Origin: a virus
DNA length: 36,983 nt
Reading direction: 5' to 3' (one strand)
Virus record (IMG/VR): IMGVR_UViG_3300049629_000825
Coordinates: 1 to 36,983 of that record
A model generated the notes under the pieces. The model searched no databases, was not told where the DNA came from, and saw nothing but the letters and a program-made list of their open reading frames with translations. A program made the position numbers and the translations under genes. Shown here in pieces: positions 2,290 to 36,569 of this stretch (position 1 is the first letter of the stretch; every line of letters starts with the position of its first letter).

Positions 2290-2476
2290 GGCGGCGACAT
2301 TCAAGCAGGGCGACGTTTCCAAGGCCATCAAGGTTGTGGAAAGCGGGGGCAAGTGTGTCGTGGCTGTGGACTTCCCGAAGGAAGGCGGGTTTCGCCTATT
2401 GCTTGGCGAACCAGTTGAGGTTGCCCCTATCCGCCGGAGCGGCGTGAACGAATGGGATGAGGTTCTCGCCATATGA
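2282..2476 (+). CDS. Small hypothetical protein before the integrase
   Basis: 64 aa. I chose the ATG at 2282, which overlaps the end of the ABA-sandwich gene by 8 bases; a longer in-frame start at 2264 only extends into that gene. The sequence (MTRAATFKQGDVSKAIKVVESGGKC...) is short-strand-rich and resembles the small excisionase-neighbour or regulatory proteins often found directly before alphaproteobacterial phage integrases. No helix-turn-helix is obvious. Its stop overlaps the integrase start, so the two are probably translated together. An excisionase role would be a guess from position. Confidence 0.6.
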   Translation: MTRAATFKQGDVSKAIKVVESGGKCVVAVDFPKEGGFRLLLGEPVEVAPIRRSGVNEWDEVLAI

Positions 2477-3537
2477 AAGCCGTGGCGAAGATTGACCTTC
2501 CTTACGTTCAGGTCTTCCGGGATCGTCACGGGACGCTTCGCCACTACTACCGCCGCCGTGGTCACACGACGACCGCTCTACCGGGTCAGGCCGGGTCTGC
2601 CGAGTTCATGGAAGCCTATCGGGAGGCCGAGGCCAGAACCCGCCCGCCCGTCGCTCAGAAGGCCGTCCAGCCCCGATCAATCCACGCCCTGGTGTCCAAA
2701 TACTATCAGTCAGTTGATTATCTGGATTTGCGGGAAAGCACGAAGCGCGGCTATCGCAACATGCTAGACCGCTTCCGCGAAAAGCACGGGGACAAGGGCG
2801 CCGCCAGTATCGAGCCCAAACACTTAGAAGCCATATTCCTTTCAATGGCCGCTACGCCCGGCGCGACCGTCAATCTTCGCAAGAGGCTCCGCAAGGTGTT
2901 CCGCCTCGCCGTCAGGCTGGGCTGGCGGTCTGACAATCCTGTTGACGCAACGGAGTTCCGGCGCAAGCGGTCGGGAGGCTTTAAGCCGTGGACCGAGGAC
3001 GACATAGCGGCCTATCAGGCTAGATGGCCTACAGGGACGCGCGAGAGGCTTGCGCTGGCCCTGCTGCTATACACCGGCCAACGCCGTAGCGATGTGGTCG
3101 GGATGGGGCGTCAGCACGTCTCAGCGGGTCGCATTAGCGTTCGCCAGCTTAAGACCGACGCGCGGCTAAAGATCAGGCTGCACCCGGCGTTGCTGACCGA
3201 GATCGAAGCGCATTCGGGGATGACGTATCTGACGACGCACCAGGGCGCCGCGTTCACTGCCGCAGGGTTCGGGAATTGGTTCAGGGAAAAGGCGCTAGAG
3301 GCCGGGGTCAATAAGACCGCTCATGGCCTACGCAAAGCCGCCGGTCGGCGCATGGCCGAGGCGGGATGCACGGCGAAGGAAATCGCCGCCGTGCTGGGGC
3401 ATCGGACGCTATCCGAAGTCGCGCGATACACGAGCGATGCCGATCAGGTTTTGCTCGCTGATTCCGCCGCCGATAAACTGGAGGCGAACGAAACGGGACG
3501 GGCCGGTGTCAAACCTGCTGTGTCAAACCATTCCTAA
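2473..3537 (+). CDS. int: Phage tyrosine integrase
   Basis: 354 aa. The N-terminal part has an arm-binding-like region (PYVQVFRDRHGTLRHYYRRRG) and a SAM-like core-binding domain (about residues 70-155). The C-terminal catalytic domain shows the tyrosine-recombinase set: Arg in YTGQRRSD, Lys in QLKTDAR, HGLRK, LGHRTLSE and the nucleophile Tyr in ARYTSD. All expected catalytic residues are visible, so it should be active. It catalyses site-specific integration and excision. Its 3' end carries two of the four GTGTCAAACC repeats that flank the attP core just downstream, the usual int-attP arrangement. Confidence 0.95.
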   Translation: MKAVAKIDLPYVQVFRDRHGTLRHYYRRRGHTTTALPGQAGSAEFMEAYREAEARTRPPVAQKAVQPRSIHALVSKYYQSVDYLDLRESTKRGYRNMLDRFREKHGDKGAASIEPKHLEAIFLSMAATPGATVNLRKRLRKVFRLAVRLGWRSDNPVDATEFRRKRSGGFKPWTEDDIAAYQARWPTGTRERLALALLLYTGQRRSDVVGMGRQHVSAGRISVRQLKTDARLKIRLHPALLTEIEAHSGMTYLTTHQGAAFTAAGFGNWFREKALEAGVNKTAHGLRKAAGRRMAEAGCTAKEIAAVLGHRTLSEVARYTSDADQVLLADSAADKLEANETGRAGVKPAVSNHS

Positions 3538-15172: not shown

Positions 15173-16944
15173 CAGTTGAGCCGCCCATATTGACCGTCAG
15201 CGGTGATGACGTAAGAGCCGGGGCGGGCGCGCTCTAACGCCTTGAGCGTGGCCGCATCCTTGGCAATGAATGGGTTAGCTGCCGATCCGCGCGGCTTGCT
15301 GGTGTCGAGCTTGACGACGGAACCGTCCGGCAGCGTAAAACCGTCCGTTTTGCCGCGCTGCTGGGCCGTCATAGCCGCTTCTGACGCCTCACGCGGGCGG
15401 CCACCAACACCCCTTTGCGGCCCGGCAGGAATGCGGGCCTGGATGGTCGTATCGGGCAGGCCAAGCTCCGTCGCATAGCCCTGAAACTGGGCGACTTGCT
15501 GGTCGTAGCGACTTTTGCGGGATTGGTAGATGGTTCCCGCCGTAGTGACGAATTGCTGGCGCTGCGCGGGCGCCAGGCGCTGACCATTTAGCGCCTTGTT
15601 ATAGGCGTTGATGACCTGATCGGGCAGCCCGGCGCTGTTTTGCGCCGTGGCAAACTCACCTTCGCGGACCACTGAACCGGGGTCCAGCATCTTCATGTAG
15701 GCGAAGATCATGGACATATCATTTGCGGCGCTGGCCGGGGCGCTGGCGATGCTTGAAATGATGTCGTAGCTCGCCGCCACGTCATTGAACGCCTTCACGT
15801 CCGCGTTCTGCTCAAACTCTTTGCGAAGCGCCACGCGGTCTTTCGGCGTAGCCCCGGCACCGCCCAATACGTCGGGCTTGCCGTCCGCGCCAATCCACAC
15901 GGGCGAATCGCCAGGAATGCCAAGCTGCGCCCGCTCCTGCGGGCTCGCCATTCGGCCCGCTGGTTTTGGAGCGCCGCTGGCGACTAACTGCGGACCAGAG
16001 CCCCGCAAGCCACCACCCGGAGGCGACCAGTTCGGCCCCGGCTCAACATGGTATGAATCGTTTTCAGGGTGATAGATCACATCATAACCCGCCCCCATTC
16101 GAGCGCGCACCGATGCAATCACCGCTTCTGGTTGCTGGCCGGGGGCGGTGAAGTCAAGCGCCGCACCTTGGCGGTGATAGGTGTCTTTGGCCGATAGCGG
16201 GAGGCCCGCGATCTCAGCCTCCGAACGCGGGTTCGGACTTCCCAGCTTCAGACCGGGGATGCCCTGCAACTGCCCCATAATATACTGGCCGACTTCCGGC
16301 GAGCGTGGCGATACTCCCCCACCACCCGGCGATGGCTGACCGCCGCGCGGAATTGCATAAAGGTTTTCTCCGGGGCCGACTTGCTGGTAAACCGGGTCAG
16401 GCTCACGAAGGACGGTGAAATCCCCCGTGGATTCATTGCCACGGCCCACGCCGCCCGCGCCCAGATTCATGAACTGGTAGTCTATCTTTTTCGCCTCGGC
16501 GCCCATCGCCGTAAGCAACAGCCGCACATTCTCCCGCGTCTTGGGAGCCGCATCAACGCGGGCCATCATTTCGGGATCAAGCGTCTCAACGAGGTAGGGC
16601 CGCAGGACTGATTGATAGGCCCCATCAATCTGATCGTCTGGCAAATCGGCCATTCCGGTCAGGATTGCTATTCCCTTTTGCGCGCGTTCCCCGGCGGCTT
16701 TCTTCGCCGCTTCCGCTTGTGCCGCTTGCTGGCCCATTTCCCGGTCCTGCACGCCGAATTGACGCTGCTGGACGGCCATACCCTCATCGAGCATCCCGCG
16801 CCCGTAGAGCGCGTCCTGAGCGCCCTGGTAGTTGCCCCCGGCGAGCGCGTTGCCAGCCTGACGACGCGCGCCGTCCTGCGCTTGTCCTTCGAGGAGGTTG
16901 TAGGCGTCCCGATACCCGGCGAGCGGGTTGATAAGTTCAGGCAT
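15172..16944 (-). CDS. Ejection protein with an embedded M15-like peptidase fold
   Basis: 590 aa. The first 160 residues are helical and Gln/Ala-rich (QAAQAEAAKKAAGERAQKG), typical of internal virion proteins. A compact middle region (about 215-302) resembles M15/VanY-type peptidases: SEAEIAGLPLSAKDTYHRQG leads into AALDF, giving H257-x6-D264, then H299 in SYHVEP. Zinc ligands seem intact, so it could open peptidoglycan during DNA entry. Gly/Pro-rich linkers flank that region, and the C-terminal 250 residues are helical. It lies between the gp7-like and gp16-like genes. Confidence 0.7.
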   Translation of the reverse strand: MPELINPLAGYRDAYNLLEGQAQDGARRQAGNALAGGNYQGAQDALYGRGMLDEGMAVQQRQFGVQDREMGQQAAQAEAAKKAAGERAQKGIAILTGMADLPDDQIDGAYQSVLRPYLVETLDPEMMARVDAAPKTRENVRLLLTAMGAEAKKIDYQFMNLGAGGVGRGNESTGDFTVLREPDPVYQQVGPGENLYAIPRGGQPSPGGGGVSPRSPEVGQYIMGQLQGIPGLKLGSPNPRSEAEIAGLPLSAKDTYHRQGAALDFTAPGQQPEAVIASVRARMGAGYDVIYHPENDSYHVEPGPNWSPPGGGLRGSGPQLVASGAPKPAGRMASPQERAQLGIPGDSPVWIGADGKPDVLGGAGATPKDRVALRKEFEQNADVKAFNDVAASYDIISSIASAPASAANDMSMIFAYMKMLDPGSVVREGEFATAQNSAGLPDQVINAYNKALNGQRLAPAQRQQFVTTAGTIYQSRKSRYDQQVAQFQGYATELGLPDTTIQARIPAGPQRGVGGRPREASEAAMTAQQRGKTDGFTLPDGSVVKLDTSKPRGSAANPFIAKDAATLKALERARPGSYVITADGQYGRLN

Positions 16945-28360: not shown

Positions 28361-28992
28361 TGCATCGTCTCCGACGTTTCGCGGTCAGCGGATTGAAACC
28401 GGATCATCGCGGCCTCAATGCTCATCAGCATGGATTGGCGGGGGGATGCGTAGCGTTCGCACTCGGCGACAATCTCCCCCAGCGTCGGGAACCAGCTACA
28501 GCGCACCGCAAGCTCCTCGCAGGCCTTCAGGGCTACGTCGGCGGGGAACCGCCTCAGGGCGCCCGTGTAGAGCGCCAGCGTGAGCATTGCGGCCTCTTGC
28601 GACTTGCGCCCGCCCGCCGTAGCGGCCTGCAACATCGCCAGCCAGTTTTCCGCCTGTTCTGTCGTCGGCGGGGACATTGCCGCCTCAACCTTGCGGAACG
28701 CCGCCGGGAGGTTTGCGCCGATCCCTCCGACCTGACAGCCCTTGGCTACGCGGTAGGCGGGCTTGTCGGCGGGGTATCGCCATTCAAACACCGGCTCGAC
28801 CTCGACGCTCAGCGATGATTGAAGCGAAGTCCGAAGGGCCTTGTCGGTTGCCACCGGATCGCGCCCCACCAGCCACGCCCGCGCCTGATCTTCGGTTGCG
28901 ACACCAGTTCCGCCATGTTGCGGACCAGTCGGACTTGCGGCCTCCTGCACCCGGCTTAGCGCACCAGAAATCGCGGAACTTATCGGCTTCAA
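28357..28992 (-). CDS. Replication accessory protein (helicase-loader-like candidate)
   Basis: 211 aa. The C-terminal half (EQAENWLAMLQAATAGGRKS, LTLALYTGALRRFPADVALK, WFPTLGEIVAECERYASPRQ) matches a recurrent phage pattern of a helical protein downstream of initiator genes: 'y...L...p.dv...al........FPt..El.'. This position is that of lambda P or DnaC-like loaders, but no Walker motif is present, so the role is inferred. The first 70 codons overlap the initiator gene in another frame by 209 bases; the true start may be further in, for example near ATG 28677. Confidence 0.6.
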   Translation of the reverse strand: MKPISSAISGALSRVQEAASPTGPQHGGTGVATEDQARAWLVGRDPVATDKALRTSLQSSLSVEVEPVFEWRYPADKPAYRVAKGCQVGGIGANLPAAFRKVEAAMSPPTTEQAENWLAMLQAATAGGRKSQEAAMLTLALYTGALRRFPADVALKACEELAVRCSWFPTLGEIVAECERYASPRQSMLMSIEAAMIRFQSADRETSETMQ

Positions 28993-29530
28993 GGCTAATC
29001 TCCTCCAGGGTCATGCCCTGTTGCTTGGCAAACGCGACTTCGGAAAGTTGGGGGGACCATTCGTCAGGAAGGCGGGTTCCCTTTGGATCGGGTTTCGCCT
29101 GGGGCTGCGCTTGCGCGGCCTCTAATGGTTCTACTGACGGTTCTACTGACGGTTCTAACGTAGTGGGATAGGACACTGTGTCCGGTAAGATCGGCTCCAA
29201 ATGTCCGGTAAGATTGTCCTCAAATGTCCGGTAAGGTTTTCCCTTAGCGGACACAGTGTCCTCAAAGATTGTCAGCGTGATCAGGTCACTCGCGCGGTAT
29301 CCGTCGCGCCTGCGGCGATGCTCTTTCGTCATCAATCCCGCATCGATAAGCGATACAAAAACCCGGCGGATTTGGCGGTCTGTTAGGCCGGTATCGAGCG
29401 CCAATCGGGCTTGCGACGGCCAGCACCGGCCCTCAGCATCGGCAAAGTTTGCCAACGCCAAGAGAACCAGCTTCTCAGAGGGGGACACCCCCTGAACAGC
29501 AAAGGCAGCGGTGATAGCCTGAACGCTCAT
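28784..29530 (-). CDS. Phage replication initiator (lambda O-like organisation)
   Basis: 248 aa. The N-terminal 90 residues are a winged helix of the HTH_36 type (GVSPSEKLVLLALANFADAE, CWPSQARLALDTGLTDRQIR). A low-complexity linker (about 105-145) holds the EPSVEPSVEPL repeat, and its DNA carries the 23-bp iterons. The C-terminal part has WSATWRNWCRNRR, a common ending of such initiators. An origin inside the initiator's own linker is the lambda O arrangement. It should bind the iterons and recruit the host replicative helicase. Confidence 0.8.
   Translation of the reverse strand: MSVQAITAAFAVQGVSPSEKLVLLALANFADAEGRCWPSQARLALDTGLTDRQIRRVFVSLIDAGLMTKEHRRRRDGYRASDLITLTIFEDTVSAKGKPYRTFEDNLTGHLEPILPDTVSYPTTLEPSVEPSVEPLEAAQAQPQAKPDPKGTRLPDEWSPQLSEVAFAKQQGMTLEEISLEADKFRDFWCAKPGAGGRKSDWSATWRNWCRNRRSGAGVAGGARSGGNRQGPSDFASIIAERRGRAGV
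29127..29158. repeat. 12-bp tandem repeat in the initiator linker
   Basis: GGTTCTACTGAC occurs at 29127-29138 and 29139-29150, followed by a partial GGTTCTAACG. It is in phase with the initiator frame and encodes EPSV repeats, so it may be a protein-level linker expansion; it directly adjoins the iteron array. Confidence 0.7.
29171..29261. other. Candidate replication origin: 23-bp iterons between two palindromes
   Basis: TGTCCGGTAAG occurs at 29179, 29202 and 29225, exactly 23 bp apart, with extended similarity (GAT....TCC...AAA); a fourth, diverged TGTCC follows at 29257. The array is bounded by GGACACTGTGTCC (29171-29183) and GGACACAGTGTCC (29249-29261), perfect 13-bp palindromes. A 23-bp period is not a multiple of three, so the repeats encode different residues each time, which points to a DNA-level role. 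Location inside the initiator gene matches lambda-type origins. Confidence 0.75.
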
Positions 29531-29718
29531 CGTTCACCCATCGTCGCCAGAGCGTCCGCGTGACGGTAGCAAAGCTCTGTGGCGGTCTGACGGCCCACCA
29601 GGGCGCAGAGAGAGCCTAGCGAAGCTTGCAACAGCCCCGTGGCTATCTCGATACGCTCGCCGGGAGTTTCGGCGGCTGCGATCATGCGTTCGGCTTCACA
29701 GACGGACGGGGGGATCAT
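29527..29718 (-). CDS. Small hypothetical protein before the initiator
   Basis: 63 aa. ATG at 29718 overlaps the DnaA-like stop; longer in-frame extensions would run into that gene. Predicted helical: PSVCEAERMIAAAETPGERI, EIATGLLQASLGSLCALVGR and YRHADALATM. No known domain. ATGA overlap with the initiator suggests co-translation and a replication-linked or regulatory role. Confidence 0.6.
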   Translation of the reverse strand: MIPPSVCEAERMIAAAETPGERIEIATGLLQASLGSLCALVGRQTATELCYRHADALATMGER

Positions 29719-30008
29719 GCGGCCCTCGCCAGTTCCCGGCGGGCTTTCGCGCGCCTCACAGCAAAGATGACGGTCGAATGGTCCCGGTCGAAAAACCGCC
29801 CGACCTGGGGAAGCGTCCATTGCCCGGTTTCGACCATCCGGAGCATCGCTTCCTGACGCGGGATGACGGCATCCGGGAACCGGTGACGGCTCCTGATTAG
29901 ATCGGGCTCAACGTCGTAATCAGCGCACACGGCGGCGAAGATTTGCGCCATGGTTGGCTTGATAGGGATACGGCCACGCCAGAGGCTTAGGAGGTAAAGC
30001 TCGCTCAT
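29715..30008 (-). CDS. DnaA domain IV-like DNA-binding protein
   Basis: 97 aa from the ATG at 30008, overlapping the preceding stop. The whole length follows DnaA's C-terminal DNA-binding domain: IFAAVCADYDVEPDLIRSRH (helices 1-2), PRQEAMLRMVET, LPQVGRFFDRDHSTVIFAVR (the 'iGr.fggRDHtTV.hAv' signature that contacts DnaA boxes). No AAA+ ATPase part is encoded here, so it could bind DnaA boxes without acting as an initiator. A competitor of, or helper to, host DnaA is inferred. Confidence 0.8.
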   Translation of the reverse strand: MSELYLLSLWRGRIPIKPTMAQIFAAVCADYDVEPDLIRSRHRFPDAVIPRQEAMLRMVETGQWTLPQVGRFFDRDHSTVIFAVRRAKARRELARAA

Positions 30009-30376
30009 GGCTGCACCCACGCCCTGCCGCGATGGCCGAAAATCAACCGGCCATCATTCAACTGCACCGACGAGGCAAACCCGCCCATGCGGAGGCAAAC
30101 GGCAATGTAAAGCTCATCGCCCGCGCCAAGATCGAACGGCGCGCACCCGTCGCGGGATTGGCCGTCGCTGACGTGACGTTGCGTCACGAGGCCGGGGCCG
30201 GTCGAAACCAAGCCCTCTACATACATTTTCGCGTGGACGGCTTTTTCCGACCGTCCGATGGACTTTGCTACGTCTGCGCAGACAGTCTTACGGTGGCCGC
30301 CCTGGTGGACGCGGGCGCGCAAAACGCCGAGTTCCTCTGACGACCACGGGCCAACGCTGGAGGGCTCAAACCTCAT
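30005..30376 (-). CDS. HTH-containing hypothetical protein
   Basis: 123 aa from the ATG at 30376. The N-terminus (GPWSSEELGVLRARVHQGGH, RKTVCADVAKSIGRSEKAVH, AKMYVEGL) looks like a SANT/GcrA-type helix-turn-helix: charged 'W..eEl..L', then 'vA..lgRs..av..k....gl'. The C-terminal part is beta-rich (GDELYIAVCLRMGGFASSVQ). It may be a small DNA-binding regulator, possibly related to the GcrA-like gene just upstream; function unknown. Confidence 0.6.
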   Translation of the reverse strand: MRFEPSSVGPWSSEELGVLRARVHQGGHRKTVCADVAKSIGRSEKAVHAKMYVEGLVSTGPGLVTQRHVSDGQSRDGCAPFDLGAGDELYIAVCLRMGGFASSVQLNDGRLIFGHRGRAWVQP

Positions 30377-30960
30377 CACGCCACCTTCCGTGCAAAGTTA
30401 GGTTGCGAGAACCCGGCCCAGCTTTTCGGCATGTCGCCGCGCATGACACGGGAATGAGTTTTGCAGTAGGTCGCGCCCTTGGTCGGGTTGCAGCAGGAGC
30501 GCGTATCAGCGCCCTCGCCATCCACCGGGAACGCGCATTCGCCAAACTTGCGAGAGGTCCACACACGGGGCGCTATTGCCACAGAGGCGTCTACCTCACG
30601 GCCATAGGCGCGGGGCTCATGAACAGGGGGAGGGATGACCAGAAGGGCGCCGTTGCCAGCCACGACCAGTTTGAGCTTGGGGCGCTTGAACCCCCGCGCA
30701 TAGGACGGGGCGAGAATAGGCTTTTTGGGTCTGGGAACCGGAAACACCTTAACCGCGTTGTTAGTCTTAGGCGGTGTCGCCTTGCGGCGTGTGGCGTCGG
30801 GCTTCATGGCCCCAATGCGGTGCAGCTTGCCCAGCACGGCGGAACGGGTGACGGTCGGGCCACGAAGGCTCAACAGGTCGGCAATGTCGGTTCCCGACTT
30901 GCCTTCAATCCACCACTGGACGCTCTCGCGCACAATGTCGTCGGTCCATTCAAATGCCAT
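30376..30960 (-). CDS. GcrA-like cell-cycle transcription regulator
   Basis: 194 aa from the ATG at 30960, preceded by AGGTGGGA and overlapping the HNH stop. The N-terminus FEWTDDIVRESVQWWIEGKS and TDIADLLSLRGPTVTRSAVL, GKLHRIG is GcrA's HTH ('WTde.v..l..lW.eG.Sa..IA..lg..TrnaViGKvHRlGL'). The C-terminus FGECAFPVDGEGADTRSCCN and PTKGATYCKTHSRV matches its sigma70-binding Cys/His part. GcrA binds sigma70-RNA polymerase and works at CcrM-methylated GANTC promoters. A phage copy may redirect that system; the linker is longer and Pro-rich. Confidence 0.85.
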   Translation of the reverse strand: MAFEWTDDIVRESVQWWIEGKSGTDIADLLSLRGPTVTRSAVLGKLHRIGAMKPDATRRKATPPKTNNAVKVFPVPRPKKPILAPSYARGFKRPKLKLVVAGNGALLVIPPPVHEPRAYGREVDASVAIAPRVWTSRKFGECAFPVDGEGADTRSCCNPTKGATYCKTHSRVMRGDMPKSWAGFSQPNFARKVA

Positions 30961-31313
30961 CAGGATTCCCACCTTTTCTGAAAGCCCCGGCTTTGCAGTT
31001 TGCGCGTCGGCGCTGGCGCAATGCCGAGGTGTTTTTTACGGGTTCGGTCGGCCTTCGCCCGTTGGGCAACGTCAGCCGCCGTCTTCTCGCGGTGCTTGTC
31101 ACGAAGGGCCGGAAACAGGTTGCTTTCAGCGTGGGCGCCGCCGTTGCAGAGGGCTTGGCGGTGATCCAGGTCCCACTGGTCCCCGGCCATGATCTTGCGG
31201 CCCGTGAGGTGACAGCGGCCCCCTTCACGTTCCCAAATGCGAAGGCGAACCCGAGCGGGGACTTTCGCGTCTGGAGTAGAGCCGATCCACTCAGCGACGG
31301 TGCGTCCGGTCAT
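30960..31313 (-). CDS. HNH endonuclease
   Basis: 117 aa from the ATG at 31313, overlapping the IbrA stop; a GTG two codons upstream is possible. HNH core: CHLTGRKI (about 34-41) in place of a CxxC pair, DLDH (48-51), CNGGAHAESNLFPAL with N65, and KHREKT with H74. Such free-standing small HNH proteins nick or cut DNA, in packaging or mobile-element roles. Here it sits between the IbrA-like and GcrA-like genes rather than near the terminase, so a function tied to the IbrA/B cassette or to replication seems more likely (inference). Confidence 0.8.
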   Translation of the reverse strand: MTGRTVAEWIGSTPDAKVPARVRLRIWEREGGRCHLTGRKIMAGDQWDLDHRQALCNGGAHAESNLFPALRDKHREKTAADVAQRAKADRTRKKHLGIAPAPTRKLQSRGFQKRWES

Positions 31314-32560
31314 GAACACGCCTCCAAGCCTAATGAAAGCTGGTATTCACCAACTCCCCATTCAGCTTTCCGGCGCTTCATAAGGTTAAGATATTTCTTG
31401 TAACCTTCCGACTTGTGCTGCGAAAACCCCATCCCCTTTCCCCAATAGTCATTGCGGAGAAGAGATTTACACACACGGCGCCAAGATGGAGCGCGCCGCG
31501 CCGCTTCCATTTCGTAGTGTGCTTCGTCGGGGATGCCCTCAGGATAACCCCTCGCCATCCACCACTTTTGAAATAGAACGATCTTGTTCTGGTAATGCTC
31601 TTGCGTCTTTGGCGGCATGGAATTGACCAGCAGCGCAGCAAACGTCTGCCACGTGTGGCCAGCGGGTTTGGTAATCCCGCGATAACCATTGATGTTGCCC
31701 CACTCTTGAACGTAGAGCGCACCGCCGTTCGCGCCGTTGACCCTGGCGACGACACGCGCCCACGTCTCCGGCTCGACCAGGTGGAACAGCCACAGTCCCC
31801 GCCGCTGATCGTCGCCGTAGGGCTGACAAATCCGCATGTGCCCCATCGGCACACCGGCCTTGTGCATTAATTCATAGAGGCGGTTATACGGCTTGGCGGG
31901 ATTGGCGGCGTGGTAGGTCCACAGGTCCGCACCCTTCCAGTCATAGATTGGATACGAGTTGTAGACATGTTCCGTGACCTTCGACGTATCGCGCCGACCC
32001 TTCCATGTTTCCTTGCGGGACTGGGCAATGGTCCGAAAGCGGTTCAGGCTTTCATCGCAGCGAATCCCGACAAAGCAGGCCGTCCGCTCGCCTTGCGAAT
32101 ACCATTCGCCAAACAGCGGAACGAACTCCTCAAACTCCATGCCGTCGTGGAAAAACGGATAGAAGGACGGGTCGCTAATGCCTTGTTCCGGTAGCTCCCT
32201 GATCCAGCCATCACGGGCGACGGGATCCCAGCACTTCCAGAACGGCTCATAGACCGAGACGGCGTTGCGAAGGTGGATCGGCAAGCAAACCCAATGCAGA
32301 TCAATCAGGTCTGCATACATGTCGATGCAAACTTGCGCGTGATCCATCGTCAGCTTGTATTGGCCTTCCAGATCGACCAGAAGCAGGCCGAACTTGCGAC
32401 CCCTCTTGCGCGCCTCATCCGCAACAAGGTGCAGCATGACGGTGCTATCCTTGCCCGCCGAAAACGAAAGATAGACGCGCGGGAACTCGTCAAAGGTCCA
32501 GGCGATACGCTGGCGCGCGGCCTCTAGAACGTTAATGCCAATGGGGTTCTTAAGCGCCAT
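31310..32560 (-). CDS. IbrA-like PAPS-reductase-family protein
   Basis: 416 aa, family length. The PP-loop SAGKDS is at residues 34-39 in PRVYLSFSAGKDSTVMLHLV; GLLLVDLEGQYKLTMDHAQV and the C-terminal DUF3440-like part (CFVGIRCDESLNRFRTIAQS, YPIYDWKGADLWTYHAANPA, PSWRRVCKSLLRNDYWGKG) match IbrA. Members share the ATP-pyrophosphatase fold used in sulfate reduction and in DndC-type DNA phosphorothioation. In E. coli IbrA acts with IbrB as a co-activator; the chemistry is unknown. An IbrB-type gene lies two genes upstream. Confidence 0.85.
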   Translation of the reverse strand: MALKNPIGINVLEAARQRIAWTFDEFPRVYLSFSAGKDSTVMLHLVADEARKRGRKFGLLLVDLEGQYKLTMDHAQVCIDMYADLIDLHWVCLPIHLRNAVSVYEPFWKCWDPVARDGWIRELPEQGISDPSFYPFFHDGMEFEEFVPLFGEWYSQGERTACFVGIRCDESLNRFRTIAQSRKETWKGRRDTSKVTEHVYNSYPIYDWKGADLWTYHAANPAKPYNRLYELMHKAGVPMGHMRICQPYGDDQRRGLWLFHLVEPETWARVVARVNGANGGALYVQEWGNINGYRGITKPAGHTWQTFAALLVNSMPPKTQEHYQNKIVLFQKWWMARGYPEGIPDEAHYEMEAARRAPSWRRVCKSLLRNDYWGKGMGFSQHKSEGYKKYLNLMKRRKAEWGVGEYQLSLGLEACS

Positions 32561-32948
32561 GTTGCACCCGCGAAAACAGGTCGGGCGTGCGGGCTTCGTC
32601 CCACTGTTTCAGAACGTCAGCAGCGACCCTGTTGGCCTCGTCTTGCTCGTCTCGGTTTAGGGTATGCCAACCAAGGCGCGTGCATTCTTCAGGAGACGAA
32701 ACGCCGATGCAGCAACCCGCATGACCGAGCCACGCAATCCGGTTAACGTTTTCCGCCGTCAGATTGTGTTCGCAGGACAGGGGCCATTGTTCCAGGGCGA
32801 GCATCATGGCCGAATGAAAAGCCGCCGGGTCGCGCATGAGGTTCGCTGACGCTTGGACAAAGCCCTTGCGCTTCTCACCCCTGACAATGCGCCACATGCC
32901 GTCTTGGAACTCTTCAAGACGCTCATAGTGATGAAACACGCGGGTCAA
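32550..32948 (-). CDS. Uncharacterised protein of the IbrA/IbrB cassette
   Basis: 132 aa between the IbrB- and IbrA-like genes, overlapping both. The TTG at 32948 (overlapping TGA, GGAG 8 nt upstream) is preferred; a GTG at 32939 is possible. Motifs: RLEEFQDGMWRIVRGEKRKG, LMRDPAAFHSAMMLALEQWP, LSCEHNLTAENVNRIAWLGH, AGCCIG, then DEQDEANRVAADVLKQWDEA. Several conserved-looking His, Cys and Trp residues could bind metal or cofactor. I recall similar proteins next to IbrA genes in other phages, but no function is known. Confidence 0.7.
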   Translation of the reverse strand: MTRVFHHYERLEEFQDGMWRIVRGEKRKGFVQASANLMRDPAAFHSAMMLALEQWPLSCEHNLTAENVNRIAWLGHAGCCIGVSSPEECTRLGWHTLNRDEQDEANRVAADVLKQWDEARTPDLFSRVQHGA

Positions 32949-33631
32949 GTGAGCATCTCCAGTTCGGCGCGAATGTCATCGTCCATCAAATTATCGTCTT
33001 CATTGATGGCATCCGGCTCCCAGGCCTCGCTGAACTCCCTATCGGCAAACATTTCCGCAAGCCCAGAGATTTGCGTCAGGCGCAAAACCTCATCTGGGTC
33101 CATGCCCAGGTTCTTGCCGATCTTGTCATCTGACCAATTGCGGCGTTTCAATTCGAGAACGATGTCGCTCATCGCCTCGACTTTGTGCTTACCGCGCGCC
33201 CGGTTGTGGCGAATTGTTGCGGCCATCCGGTCGCCACGATCTGATTGCTCTACACGGATGCAAACGACCGGCAGGTATCCCTGAACGCGCTCTTGAACGT
33301 CTTTGCACTCTTTGCCGACGCGCGTTCTGTGAAACCCGTCAACAACTATGGTTTGATTATCGTCAGTATGCGCGACAATCGGCTGCGTATATCCGTCAGC
33401 CATGATTGAAAGGCGCAACAATTCCATTTCTGGCGGCGCAACGCTATTCGGGTTGTAGTCGTTGGCCTCTACCGTTTCAGACAGTTTCCACAGCACGCAA
33501 TCGACCGGCTCGCTACGGAACGGCGAAACCTCGTGGATTGCTTGGCGAATGTCGTTGATAGCCTCCACACGATCCGCCAAGGGAAGATCGGCTACGCTCT
33601 TTAGAAGCTGCTGCAAGGCTTTCTTGTTCAT
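32945..33631 (-). CDS. IbrB-like ParB-domain protein
   Basis: 228 aa. The N-terminal ParB/Srx-like nuclease domain has NSVAPPEMELLRLSIMADGY (a 'L..SI...G..qPi' segment), VVDGFHRTRVG (98-106, equivalent to the ParB 'GEHRyrA' box) and RHNRARGKHK (141-150), typical of IbrB. A helix-turn-helix (about 157-185, ELKRRNWSDDKIGKNLGMDP) and an acidic tail follow. ParB-type domains bind and hydrolyse CTP or act as nucleases. With IbrA it is probably a two-component functional pair. ATGA overlap with the preceding gene. Confidence 0.85.
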   Translation of the reverse strand: MNKKALQQLLKSVADLPLADRVEAINDIRQAIHEVSPFRSEPVDCVLWKLSETVEANDYNPNSVAPPEMELLRLSIMADGYTQPIVAHTDDNQTIVVDGFHRTRVGKECKDVQERVQGYLPVVCIRVEQSDRGDRMAATIRHNRARGKHKVEAMSDIVLELKRRNWSDDKIGKNLGMDPDEVLRLTQISGLAEMFADREFSEAWEPDAINEDDNLMDDDIRAELEMLT

Positions 33632-34010: not shown

Positions 34011-34241
34011 TCAGGCGGCCTCACCAGATGCACGGACCAGCGCGACGTCGGCGTTAAGTTCCGAAGCGACAAGAGCGCCCTGCGAAATCCGCTCAAGCTC
34101 CAGCGCAACGCGAACGGAACATTTAGCCTTCCCCTGTTCAATGTCAGAGGCGTGGCCCTTGCTCGACAGGCCAAGCTCCTTGGCAAGTTCTTCAAGGGAC
34201 CAGCCACGGCTGGCGCGAAGTTCTGAAATGGTCATAACCAT
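34011..34241 (-). CDS. Cro-like XRE-family regulator
   Basis: 76 aa from ATG 34241 (or 74 aa from 34235); the longer start at 34262 would lie inside the operator. HTH: TISELRASRGWSLEELAKEL, GLSSKGHASDIEQGKAKCSV. The end RVALELERISQGALVASELN is typical of YdaS/Cro-type proteins. It is the first gene of the leftward early operon and divergent from the repressor, as Cro is in lambdoid phages. No clear ribosome-binding site precedes it, so translation may be leaderless or weak. Confidence 0.75.
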   Translation of the reverse strand: MVMTISELRASRGWSLEELAKELGLSSKGHASDIEQGKAKCSVRVALELERISQGALVASELNADVALVRASGEAA

Positions 34242-34243
34242 TA

Positions 34244-34270
34244 GTTCGGATAATCCGAACACAATGTCAA
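34244..34270. promoter_or_regulatory. Operator O1 and divergent early promoter region
   Basis: GTTCGGATAATCCGAAC (34244-34260) is a perfect 17-bp palindrome apart from its centre, in the 22-base gap between the divergent repressor and Cro-like genes. A consensus -35 TTGACA reads leftward at 34270-34265. In the rightward direction GATAAT (34249-34254) lies 9 bp before the repressor ATG, fitting a leaderless message. Binding here would control both genes. Confidence 0.7.
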
Positions 34271-34659
34271 GCGCGGGCGTTCGCCTTTACCCTGCCGACA
34301 AGCTCCCTTGGAAAGCGCACACTAGAGCCGTGGTTAAAGCGGCTCAAAAAACGCAACGCGACTTTCGGCATACCTGGTTCCTGCGGGAGTGGGCGGAACA
34401 GGCGCGCCTGACGCAAGCCGATCTGCAACGCGCCGCCGGATGGTCAAAAGCCAAAGCGTCCGACGTTTGGAACGGCCAGCAATATAATCAATCAATCATC
34501 GACGAGCTGGCGCCGATCTTGATGATCCGTCCGTTTGAAATACTCTTACACCCCGACGAGGCGTTTTTGATCCGGCGAATGCGAGACGCTTCGCCCCGCG
34601 CGGTCACGTCGGAAATTGCGCCTCAAACGCCGCGCATAAAGGCTACCAGGGCAACCTAA
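34264..34659 (+). CDS. XRE-family repressor (probable CI equivalent)
   Basis: 131 aa from the ATG at 34264 next to O1; upstream in-frame sequence would run through the Cro-like gene antisense. After an N-terminal extension comes WFLREWAEQARLTQADLQRA, AGWSKAKASDVWNGQQYNQS, IIDELAPILMIRPFEILLHP, the form of small XRE repressors in alphaproteobacterial phages ('.yl.eWre..gltQ..LA...g.sk...S...nG...y....l..lA.al...p..LL..P'). No RecA-cleavable peptidase domain is present, so induction must differ from lambda CI. It probably maintains lysogeny. Confidence 0.75.
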   Translation: MSSAGVRLYPADKLPWKAHTRAVVKAAQKTQRDFRHTWFLREWAEQARLTQADLQRAAGWSKAKASDVWNGQQYNQSIIDELAPILMIRPFEILLHPDEAFLIRRMRDASPRAVTSEIAPQTPRIKATRAT

Positions 34660-35815: not shown

Positions 35816-35925
35816 CCCCCGACACTGACACCATCATCGGCCTGATGATCACCGTTGGTCTGCTGGTCGGACTTATCGCCCTTCGGTCTTTGGCCGAACG
35901 GCACTTCAAGGATGACGCGAAATGA
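35812..35925 (+). CDS. 37-aa single-span membrane peptide
   Basis: ATGA overlaps on both sides, the downstream one with the Erf gene. MTPDTDTIIGLMITVGLLVG then LIALRSLAERHFKDDAK gives one membrane span and a charged cytoplasmic end. It is too short for family assignment; second small membrane peptide of this operon. Confidence 0.55.
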   Translation: MTPDTDTIIGLMITVGLLVGLIALRSLAERHFKDDAK

Positions 35926-36569
35926 CCGATCTGATTTGGGAAGGCGAACGCGCGCCGCTGGCAAAGGCCCTGGTGGCCGCTCAGAAGGCGACCGAGGCCG
36001 TTAAGAAGGCCAGCACTAACCCGGCTTTCAAGTCCAAGTATGCCGACCTGTCTGTAGTGGTGGAGGCCGTCGTTCCGGCCCTCAATGCCGCTGGCGTCAG
36101 CGTCCTGCAATTCCCGGCGTTCAACGGCGAGCTTGTCAGCGTGGCGACGACGCTGTTGCACGAAAGCGGCTCATCGGTCACGGCGACCCTGCACCTTCGC
36201 CCGTCCAAGCTGGACCCGCAGGGCGTGGGTTCGGCCATCACCTACGCCCGGCGCTATGCGCTCATGGCGATGACAGGAGCCGCGCCCGAAGATGACGACG
36301 GCGCTGCAGCTAGTGGCCCGCGTGACGCCGCCCCAGCCCGTCCGGTTCAGCCTCCCGCCGCGCCAACATTGGCCGAGCGCGCTAACCGGCTGGAATCCGC
36401 CATGCGTGCGAAGGCCGGTCAACCGGAGGCGGTGCAGAAGGTGTTTGACCAGGGCGCATCGCTTTGCGCGGAGCTTGACCAGAAGTCGCCCGAACGTCTC
36501 GCCGAACTTGAGACGCTGTTGAAGATGCTGCTGGCCGTGCCGGAAGCCGTCCCAATGGCCGCAGAATGA
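35922..36569 (+). CDS. erf: Erf-family single-strand DNA annealing protein
   Basis: 215 aa. The N-terminal half has the ERF pattern: PLAKALVAAQKATEAVKKAS, NPAFKSKYADLSVVVEAVVP, LLHESGSSVTATLHLRPSKL and GSAITYARRYALMAMTGAAP, where 'G.aiTYarRYaL....gi..' is diagnostic. The C-terminal half is a Pro/Ala linker plus helices. Erf (P22) anneals complementary single strands in phage recombination and circularisation. Gp157 follows and NinB lies just beyond the window junction, forming a recombination module. Confidence 0.9.
   Translation: MTDLIWEGERAPLAKALVAAQKATEAVKKASTNPAFKSKYADLSVVVEAVVPALNAAGVSVLQFPAFNGELVSVATTLLHESGSSVTATLHLRPSKLDPQGVGSAITYARRYALMAMTGAAPEDDDGAAASGPRDAAPARPVQPPAAPTLAERANRLESAMRAKAGQPEAVQKVFDQGASLCAELDQKSPERLAELETLLKMLLAVPEAVPMAAE

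Follow-up and report, generated by a model that had tools for sequence, protein, structure and literature searches.

Why would the early operon of a small temperate phage encode relatives of two cell-cycle regulators? The GcrA and DnaA families are cell-cycle regulators in alphaproteobacteria (PMC3667746), and members of both are encoded close together in IMG/VR record IMGVR_UViG_3300049629_000825, all 36,983 bases of which were analyzed here and are hereafter called the window. Besides portal, terminase, and capsid proteins, the window encodes an integrase and an Erf annealing protein (Table 1), and we assign it to a temperate phage whose host is probably an alphaproteobacterium. Its two ends almost meet in the relative L002 (window 50-4 plus 36981 map to L002 3037-3083 plus 3130), so the phage genome is probably almost complete.

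The minus-strand early operon runs in the order ParB-like protein, orf132, PAPS-reductase-like protein, HNH nuclease, GcrA, orf124, the lone DnaA domain IV (DnaA-IV), orf97, O-type replication protein (RepO), and terminase. Its genes are tightly packed on one strand, and stop codons overlap the start codons of neighboring genes, a layout that resembles translational coupling; the ATG of DnaA-IV, for example, overlaps the stop of orf124. The initial annotation had placed both regulators in a shared phage operon with DnaA-IV two genes after GcrA, and this organization is confirmed, with orf124 alone between them. The orf124 product is 91% identical to its L002 copy and weakly matches the transcriptional regulator family phrog_323 (E 0.0044). 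On the other side of DnaA-IV, orf97 is conserved in relatives (97% identity in L003, 44% in L002) and may begin at an ATG close to the DnaA-IV stop, as an alternative to the longest-ORF start. Small HTH proteins are encoded on both sides of the putative early promoter. Upstream of the HNH and GcrA genes, window 31310-33631 encodes DUF3440/PAPS-reductase-like, 132-aa, and ParB-like proteins, which we take to resemble an IbrA/IbrB-type pair; the same slot in L003 (2583-4888) holds different genes, including an ORF with a methylase motif.

Table 1. Positions of the phage features discussed in the text (window coordinates).
Feature	Position	Strand	Match or remark
Integrase	2473-3537		
O-type replication initiator/helicase-loader-like protein (RepO)	28784..29530	-	HTH_36 match
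Iteron cluster within replication gene	29170..29270		Repeats of ATCTTACCGGACATTTG on minus strand; flanked by GGACAC-TGTCC inverted repeats
orf97, conserved small protein between DnaA-IV and RepO	29527..29820	-	Longest ORF
DnaA-IV CDS, 97 aa, without AAA+ ATPase	29715..30008	-	Pfam PF08299
orf124, small HTH-like protein between GcrA and DnaA-IV	30005..30379	-	N-terminus WSSEELGVLRARVHQGG
GcrA-like CDS, 194 aa from ATG	30376..30960	-	Pfam PF07750
HNH endonuclease, directly upstream of GcrA	30960..31313	-	phrog_333, E 7.2e-18
Putative early leftward promoter (TTGACA)	34220..34280	-	Read from sequence
Inverted repeat GTTCGGATTATCCGAAC overlapping early promoter	34220-34280		Putative repressor operator, predicted from sequence
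Erf annealing protein	35922-36569		

The GcrA-like protein matches PF07750 at profile positions 2-145 of 155 (E 4.5e-13; 50.3 bits against a cut-off of 26.9). Both motifs by which it was first recognized, TRSAVLGKLHRIG and CNPTKGATYCKTH, are present, and the original description of a full-length GcrA-like gene was exact to the base. The protein is laid out as an N-terminal HTH (aa 1-50), a low-confidence linker, and a C-terminal C/C/C/H domain (~aa 131-172), and its nearest solved structures are those of Caulobacter crescentus GcrA (5yiu, 7ye1). Its DNA-binding signature is retained, comprising W5 and the recognition-helix residues R39, V42, G44, K45, H47, and R48 (pattern R..V.GK.HR), which are the same as in chromosomal GcrA. 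Given that the viral GcrA set was gathered by the recognition-helix pattern, helix conservation across that set is partly built in; the window helix is unaffected. The C/C/C/H cluster is likewise retained (C142, C156, C166, H169). None of the eight C-terminal residues (W/G/P/F/F/G/A/Y) that are near-invariant in 30 chromosomal GcrAs occurs in the window protein; on average, chromosomal GcrAs keep 7.9 of the eight and viral GcrAs 2.9.

An AlphaFold model of the protein reached a pLDDT of ~95 in the HTH and ~91 in the C-terminal domain. The best PDB match retrieved by Foldseek was 7ye1_G, C. crescentus GcrA in its activation complex, at a weak E of 0.017, and the C-terminal model weakly matched the sigma-interacting domain 5yix_B (TM 0.64 by target length, probability 0.75, E 1.1). 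We infer that the C-terminal domain has kept its fold and had its surface rewritten to a viral type; judged by the residues replaced, it may have lost sigma70 binding. Both genes of interest are under purifying selection between the window and L003, with dN 0.038, dS 0.34, and dN/dS 0.11 for GcrA and dN 0.009, dS 0.23, and dN/dS 0.04 for DnaA-IV.

A tree built from 72 viral and 30 chromosomal GcrAs placed the window protein inside viral-only clades (supports of 98/89 for 24 rows and 95/90 for 17 rows, with the bootstrap not fully settled) and apart from chromosomal GcrA. Such a phylogeny had been proposed as a check in the initial annotation; the viral-only clades indicate an old phage lineage and no recent capture from a host. 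A scan of viral contigs yielded 170 stretches with GcrA relatives (80 loci were retained), so phage GcrA is common. One locus, L087, is binned as Acidobacteriaceae, and its phage GcrA is very near those of L004 and an Aestuariivirga MAG; the binning is probably wrong.

DnaA-IV matches Bac_DnaA_C (PF08299) at positions 2-68 of 69 (E 6.8e-15; 55.3 bits against a cut-off of 31.5) and contains the motif DRDHSTVIFAVR. No AAA+ ATPase (domain III) is encoded in this gene, which at 97 aa is too short for one and matched domain IV alone, exactly as the stand-alone domain had been delimited at the outset. Neither the GcrA nor the DnaA-IV family match is due to chance. The nearest solved structures to DnaA-IV are 1j1v and 3pvp. 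Positions aligned with Escherichia coli R399, D433, and H434 are unchanged, with Ser in place of T435; we take these four to be base-contact positions, as in the 1j1v structure. A lone DnaA domain IV without the ATPase can bind DnaA boxes but cannot unwind DNA, and the phage protein could possibly block host DnaA boxes.

Stand-alone DnaA-IV is no phage-only invention, since a chromosomal survey of 114 genomes of the presumed host class recovered a chromosomal family of the DRTT type. These loci (L229-L236, in several genomes of the class) have open frames of 120-194 aa with DRTT replacing DHTT. A DnaA-IV tree of 72 columns had too weak a resolution to place the origin. Ahead of the domain, an N-terminal SLW(R/H)G motif, possibly a protein-contact motif, is shared by the DnaA-IV proteins of the window (29715-30008), L122 (858-1172), and L124 (6259-6603). 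Multiple copies also occur: L077 (12208-14073) carries up to four tandem stand-alone DnaA-IV genes on a contig that also encodes GcrA, DnaB, and a DUF1376 protein, and L035 (9697-10284) encodes a protein of 195 aa whose DnaA-IV-like domains, two in number, span aa 11-66 and 116-184; its gene immediately precedes a replication gene. Small HTH proteins related to phrog_323, like orf124, adjoin DnaA-IV in L124 (5789-6262) and L044 (6592-7002), the latter being also weakly GcrA-related.

The pairing of GcrA with DnaA-IV is more than a one-off. Of the 67 distinct phage contigs with GcrA, 21 encoded a stand-alone DnaA-IV, compared with 2 of 31 terminase relatives that lack GcrA (p 0.009); matches over the family cut-off were found in 16 of the 67, and on these alone the co-occurrence has p 0.049. 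The two genes lie less than 3 kb apart on the same strand in 10 of 19 lineages, where random placement predicts 1.8. Terminase relatives served as controls because the DUF2460 tail marker, considered as an alphaproteobacterial control, was absent from all 33 phage records searched. With hosts unmatched, duplicates removed by hand, and both genes residing in early regions anyway, the controls are imperfect, so the link is probably real but short of proven. The pair is also not obligate, as L002 keeps GcrA without DnaA-IV.

Gene neighborhoods connect DnaA-IV to replication. RepO matches phrog_1032 (E 1.2e-28) and the O-like phrog_391 (E 2.2e-18), and the iteron cluster within its gene, judged by its repeats, is the probable phage origin; the same arrangement is found inside the divergent RepO of L122. 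L003 retains GcrA, orf124, DnaA-IV, orf97, and RepO. Homology to L002 ends at window 29999, where DnaA-IV starts; there, DnaA-IV is gone, a DnaB helicase replaces RepO, and GcrA stays. L119 similarly combines GcrA and DnaB without DnaA-IV. DnaA-IV stands before the replication gene in the window, L003, L122, and L124 (in the last two, an O-type or DUF1376-like gene follows directly), and a similar order with DnaD-like, DUF1376, or primosomal proteins recurs in L050, L035, L030, and L138; in L075 and L084, it is a few genes from the replication gene. Its loss together with RepO in L002 and its frequent place before O, DnaD, or DUF1376 genes make DnaA-IV look like part of the replication module. 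Across 97 loci, loader genes accompanied DnaA-IV in 12 of 20 cases, against 19 of 77 (p 0.006), with loader profiles partly seeded from the positive loci; the association lacks significance when the GcrA loci are taken by themselves (p 0.24). DnaB and DnaA-IV occur together in L077 and L076, and no recognized loader lies near DnaA-IV in L044, L036, or L063. Overall, the gene neighborhood of DnaA-IV is at least as compatible with a role in phage replication as with one in blocking host DnaA boxes.

A count of GANTC and DnaA-box sites in the phage had been proposed in the initial annotation. The window contains 26 GANTC sites, where 78 (third-order model) or 145 (dinucleotide model) are expected. 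The resulting density of 0.70 per kb is near the random background of 0.58 per kb quoted for C. crescentus (PMC3667746), and the depletion fits a CcrM-type host; together with GcrA itself, it upholds the alphaproteobacterial setting that had been assumed. A phage regulon would have few such sites to draw on. The putative early promoter contains none, and we read only one as having the YGAKTCG form (position 15905, within a structural gene). The sequence gives no support to a redirection of methylation-dependent transcription of the phage itself. One GANTC coincides with the ribosome-binding site of gcrA (30964) and was considered as a point of self-control, but it was dropped because the adjoining codons indicate that it is not conserved in L002. 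No match to N6_N4_Mtase (PF01555), sought as a CcrM-type methylase, was found in the phage; an ORF with a DPPY-like methylase motif lies within 5 kb of ~20 of 73 GcrA loci, a motif count that includes some spurious matches.

The phage has no exact DnaA box (TTATNCACA), and one-mismatch boxes are at chance level in the window (10, with 9.9 expected). Exact boxes were likewise absent from 14 related early regions, and box-like sites over 14 phage replication regions were slightly few (6, where ~15 are expected). The proposal that the phage borrows DnaA boxes is not supported by these counts. A search for an own-genome regulon by GANTC and DnaA-box counts produced no candidate and was rejected, and no binding site for GcrA or DnaA-IV could be named.

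Taken together, gene neighborhoods and sequences speak at least as strongly for roles in phage gene control and phage DNA replication as for a hijack of the host cell cycle. Our preferred, still tentative reading (probability of roughly 0.4) is that the pair belongs to a delayed-early cassette for regulation and replication in a temperate alphaproteobacterial phage, with GcrA as a cofactor of host RNA polymerase and DnaA-IV as a replication accessory. Viral GcrA would bind DNA through its HTH, reading GANTC and its m6A mark. Because phage GANTC sites are few and none lies at the early promoter, its main target would be the methylated host chromosome, where it would compete with host GcrA at S-phase genes or supplement it. 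DnaA-IV would chiefly bind DNA to assist or regulate the replication module of the phage itself, working beside the iteron-binding O-type initiator and not as a copy of host DnaA.

A fairly unlikely alternative is that both proteins are plain HTH regulators of phage early or late genes that happen to have GcrA- and DnaA-type folds, with no link to the host cell cycle or to replication initiation. The deep clades formed by viral GcrAs would agree with this, as would the phrog_323-type small HTH proteins that recur as orf124, as the gene before DnaA-IV in L124, and as the gene after it in L044. However, the strict GcrA recognition helix and the DnaA base-contact positions suggest retained specificity, and DnaA-IV is repeatedly placed beside replication genes. 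Unlikely, in our estimate, is the reading offered by the initial annotation, in which the two proteins tie the phage program to the host cell-cycle phase through m6A- and sigma70-dependent transcription and through blocking of DnaA boxes at oriC and DnaA-regulated promoters. The family identities, the operon, the host setting, and the recurrence of the pair (close and co-directional) all stood, the retained DnaA-IV residues accord with it, and a GcrA of phage phiCbK has been proposed to alter the host replicative state (PMC3556154). Control of the phage's own genes by methylation and the borrowing of boxes found no support in the sequence, and against the remainder are the rewritten host-type sigma-contact half of GcrA and the L002 genome, in which DnaA-IV is lost with RepO while GcrA stays. 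We consider it quite unlikely that a recurrent two-regulator cassette couples phage replication to host S phase, with GcrA reading hemi- or full methylation of the chromosome and DnaA-IV controlling initiation at host or phage origins. Least probable is a dominant-negative inhibitor, whereby DnaA-IV sits on host DnaA boxes and shuts down chromosome initiation, which frees the replisome for the phage, while GcrA raises expression of host replication enzymes: box binding without unwinding is textbook behavior for a lone domain IV, box-like sites are slightly scarce in the phage replication regions, and the prophage protein YfdR blocks DnaA by another route (PMC4776307), but boxes are not avoided over the whole window, and DnaA-IV is lost where the phage has its own helicase, though silencing host initiation would still pay.

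The repeated partnership of GcrA with a stand-alone DnaA DNA-binding domain, in small temperate phages whose early operons are simple, offers a tractable system for two questions: do phages read CcrM methylation, and does a lone DnaA domain act in the replication of the phage or of the host? Most viral GcrAs, with their rewritten C-terminal halves, amount to a set of natural mutants of the sigma-binding surface. Among open-license papers, we found no description of the GcrA/DnaA-IV pairing or its recurrence, of stand-alone DnaA-IV at phage replication modules, or of GcrAs in which the DNA-binding half is conserved and the C-terminal half rewritten; nor did we find a paper testing phage GcrA function in that literature.

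Phage GcrA itself has been known since 2012, when the homolog gp222 was reported in Caulobacter phage phiCbK and its relatives (PMC3556154). It has since been noted in Agrobacterium phage Atu_ph08 (PMC6630229) and in coral-associated phages (PMC11309003). An inventory of phiLM21-like Sinorhizobium meliloti prophages lists GcrA (5) and DnaA COG0593 (1) among accessory genes (PMC12429752); we found no discussion there of their pairing, stand-alone domain structure, or function. Like phiCbK, Atu_ph08, and Caulobacter phage DMCA (PQ480021.1), the window phage, whose host is probably an alphaproteobacterium, encodes a GcrA-family protein. In contrast to the large phiCbK-like phages (205 kb and up), it is a 37-kb temperate phage, and its GcrA, ~30% identical to that of DMCA, belongs to a separate viral clade and is paired with DnaA-IV. 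With C. crescentus GcrA (5yiu, 5yix, 7ye1), it shares the HTH (WTD...TRxAVxGKxHRxG), the C/C/C/H C-terminal domain, and the overall fold; it differs in the chromosomal C-terminal residues, all eight of which are replaced, and in a longer linker. DnaA-IV has the fold family, minor-groove arginine position, and DH(S/T) recognition motif of DnaA domain IV (1j1v, 3pvp), whereas the missing domains I-III leave it without ATP binding, DNA unwinding, or DnaA-style helicase loading. Finally, the replication module resembles the Lambda-type O module in its O-like protein and in the iterons within the replication gene, and differs from it in the DnaA-IV gene that precedes.
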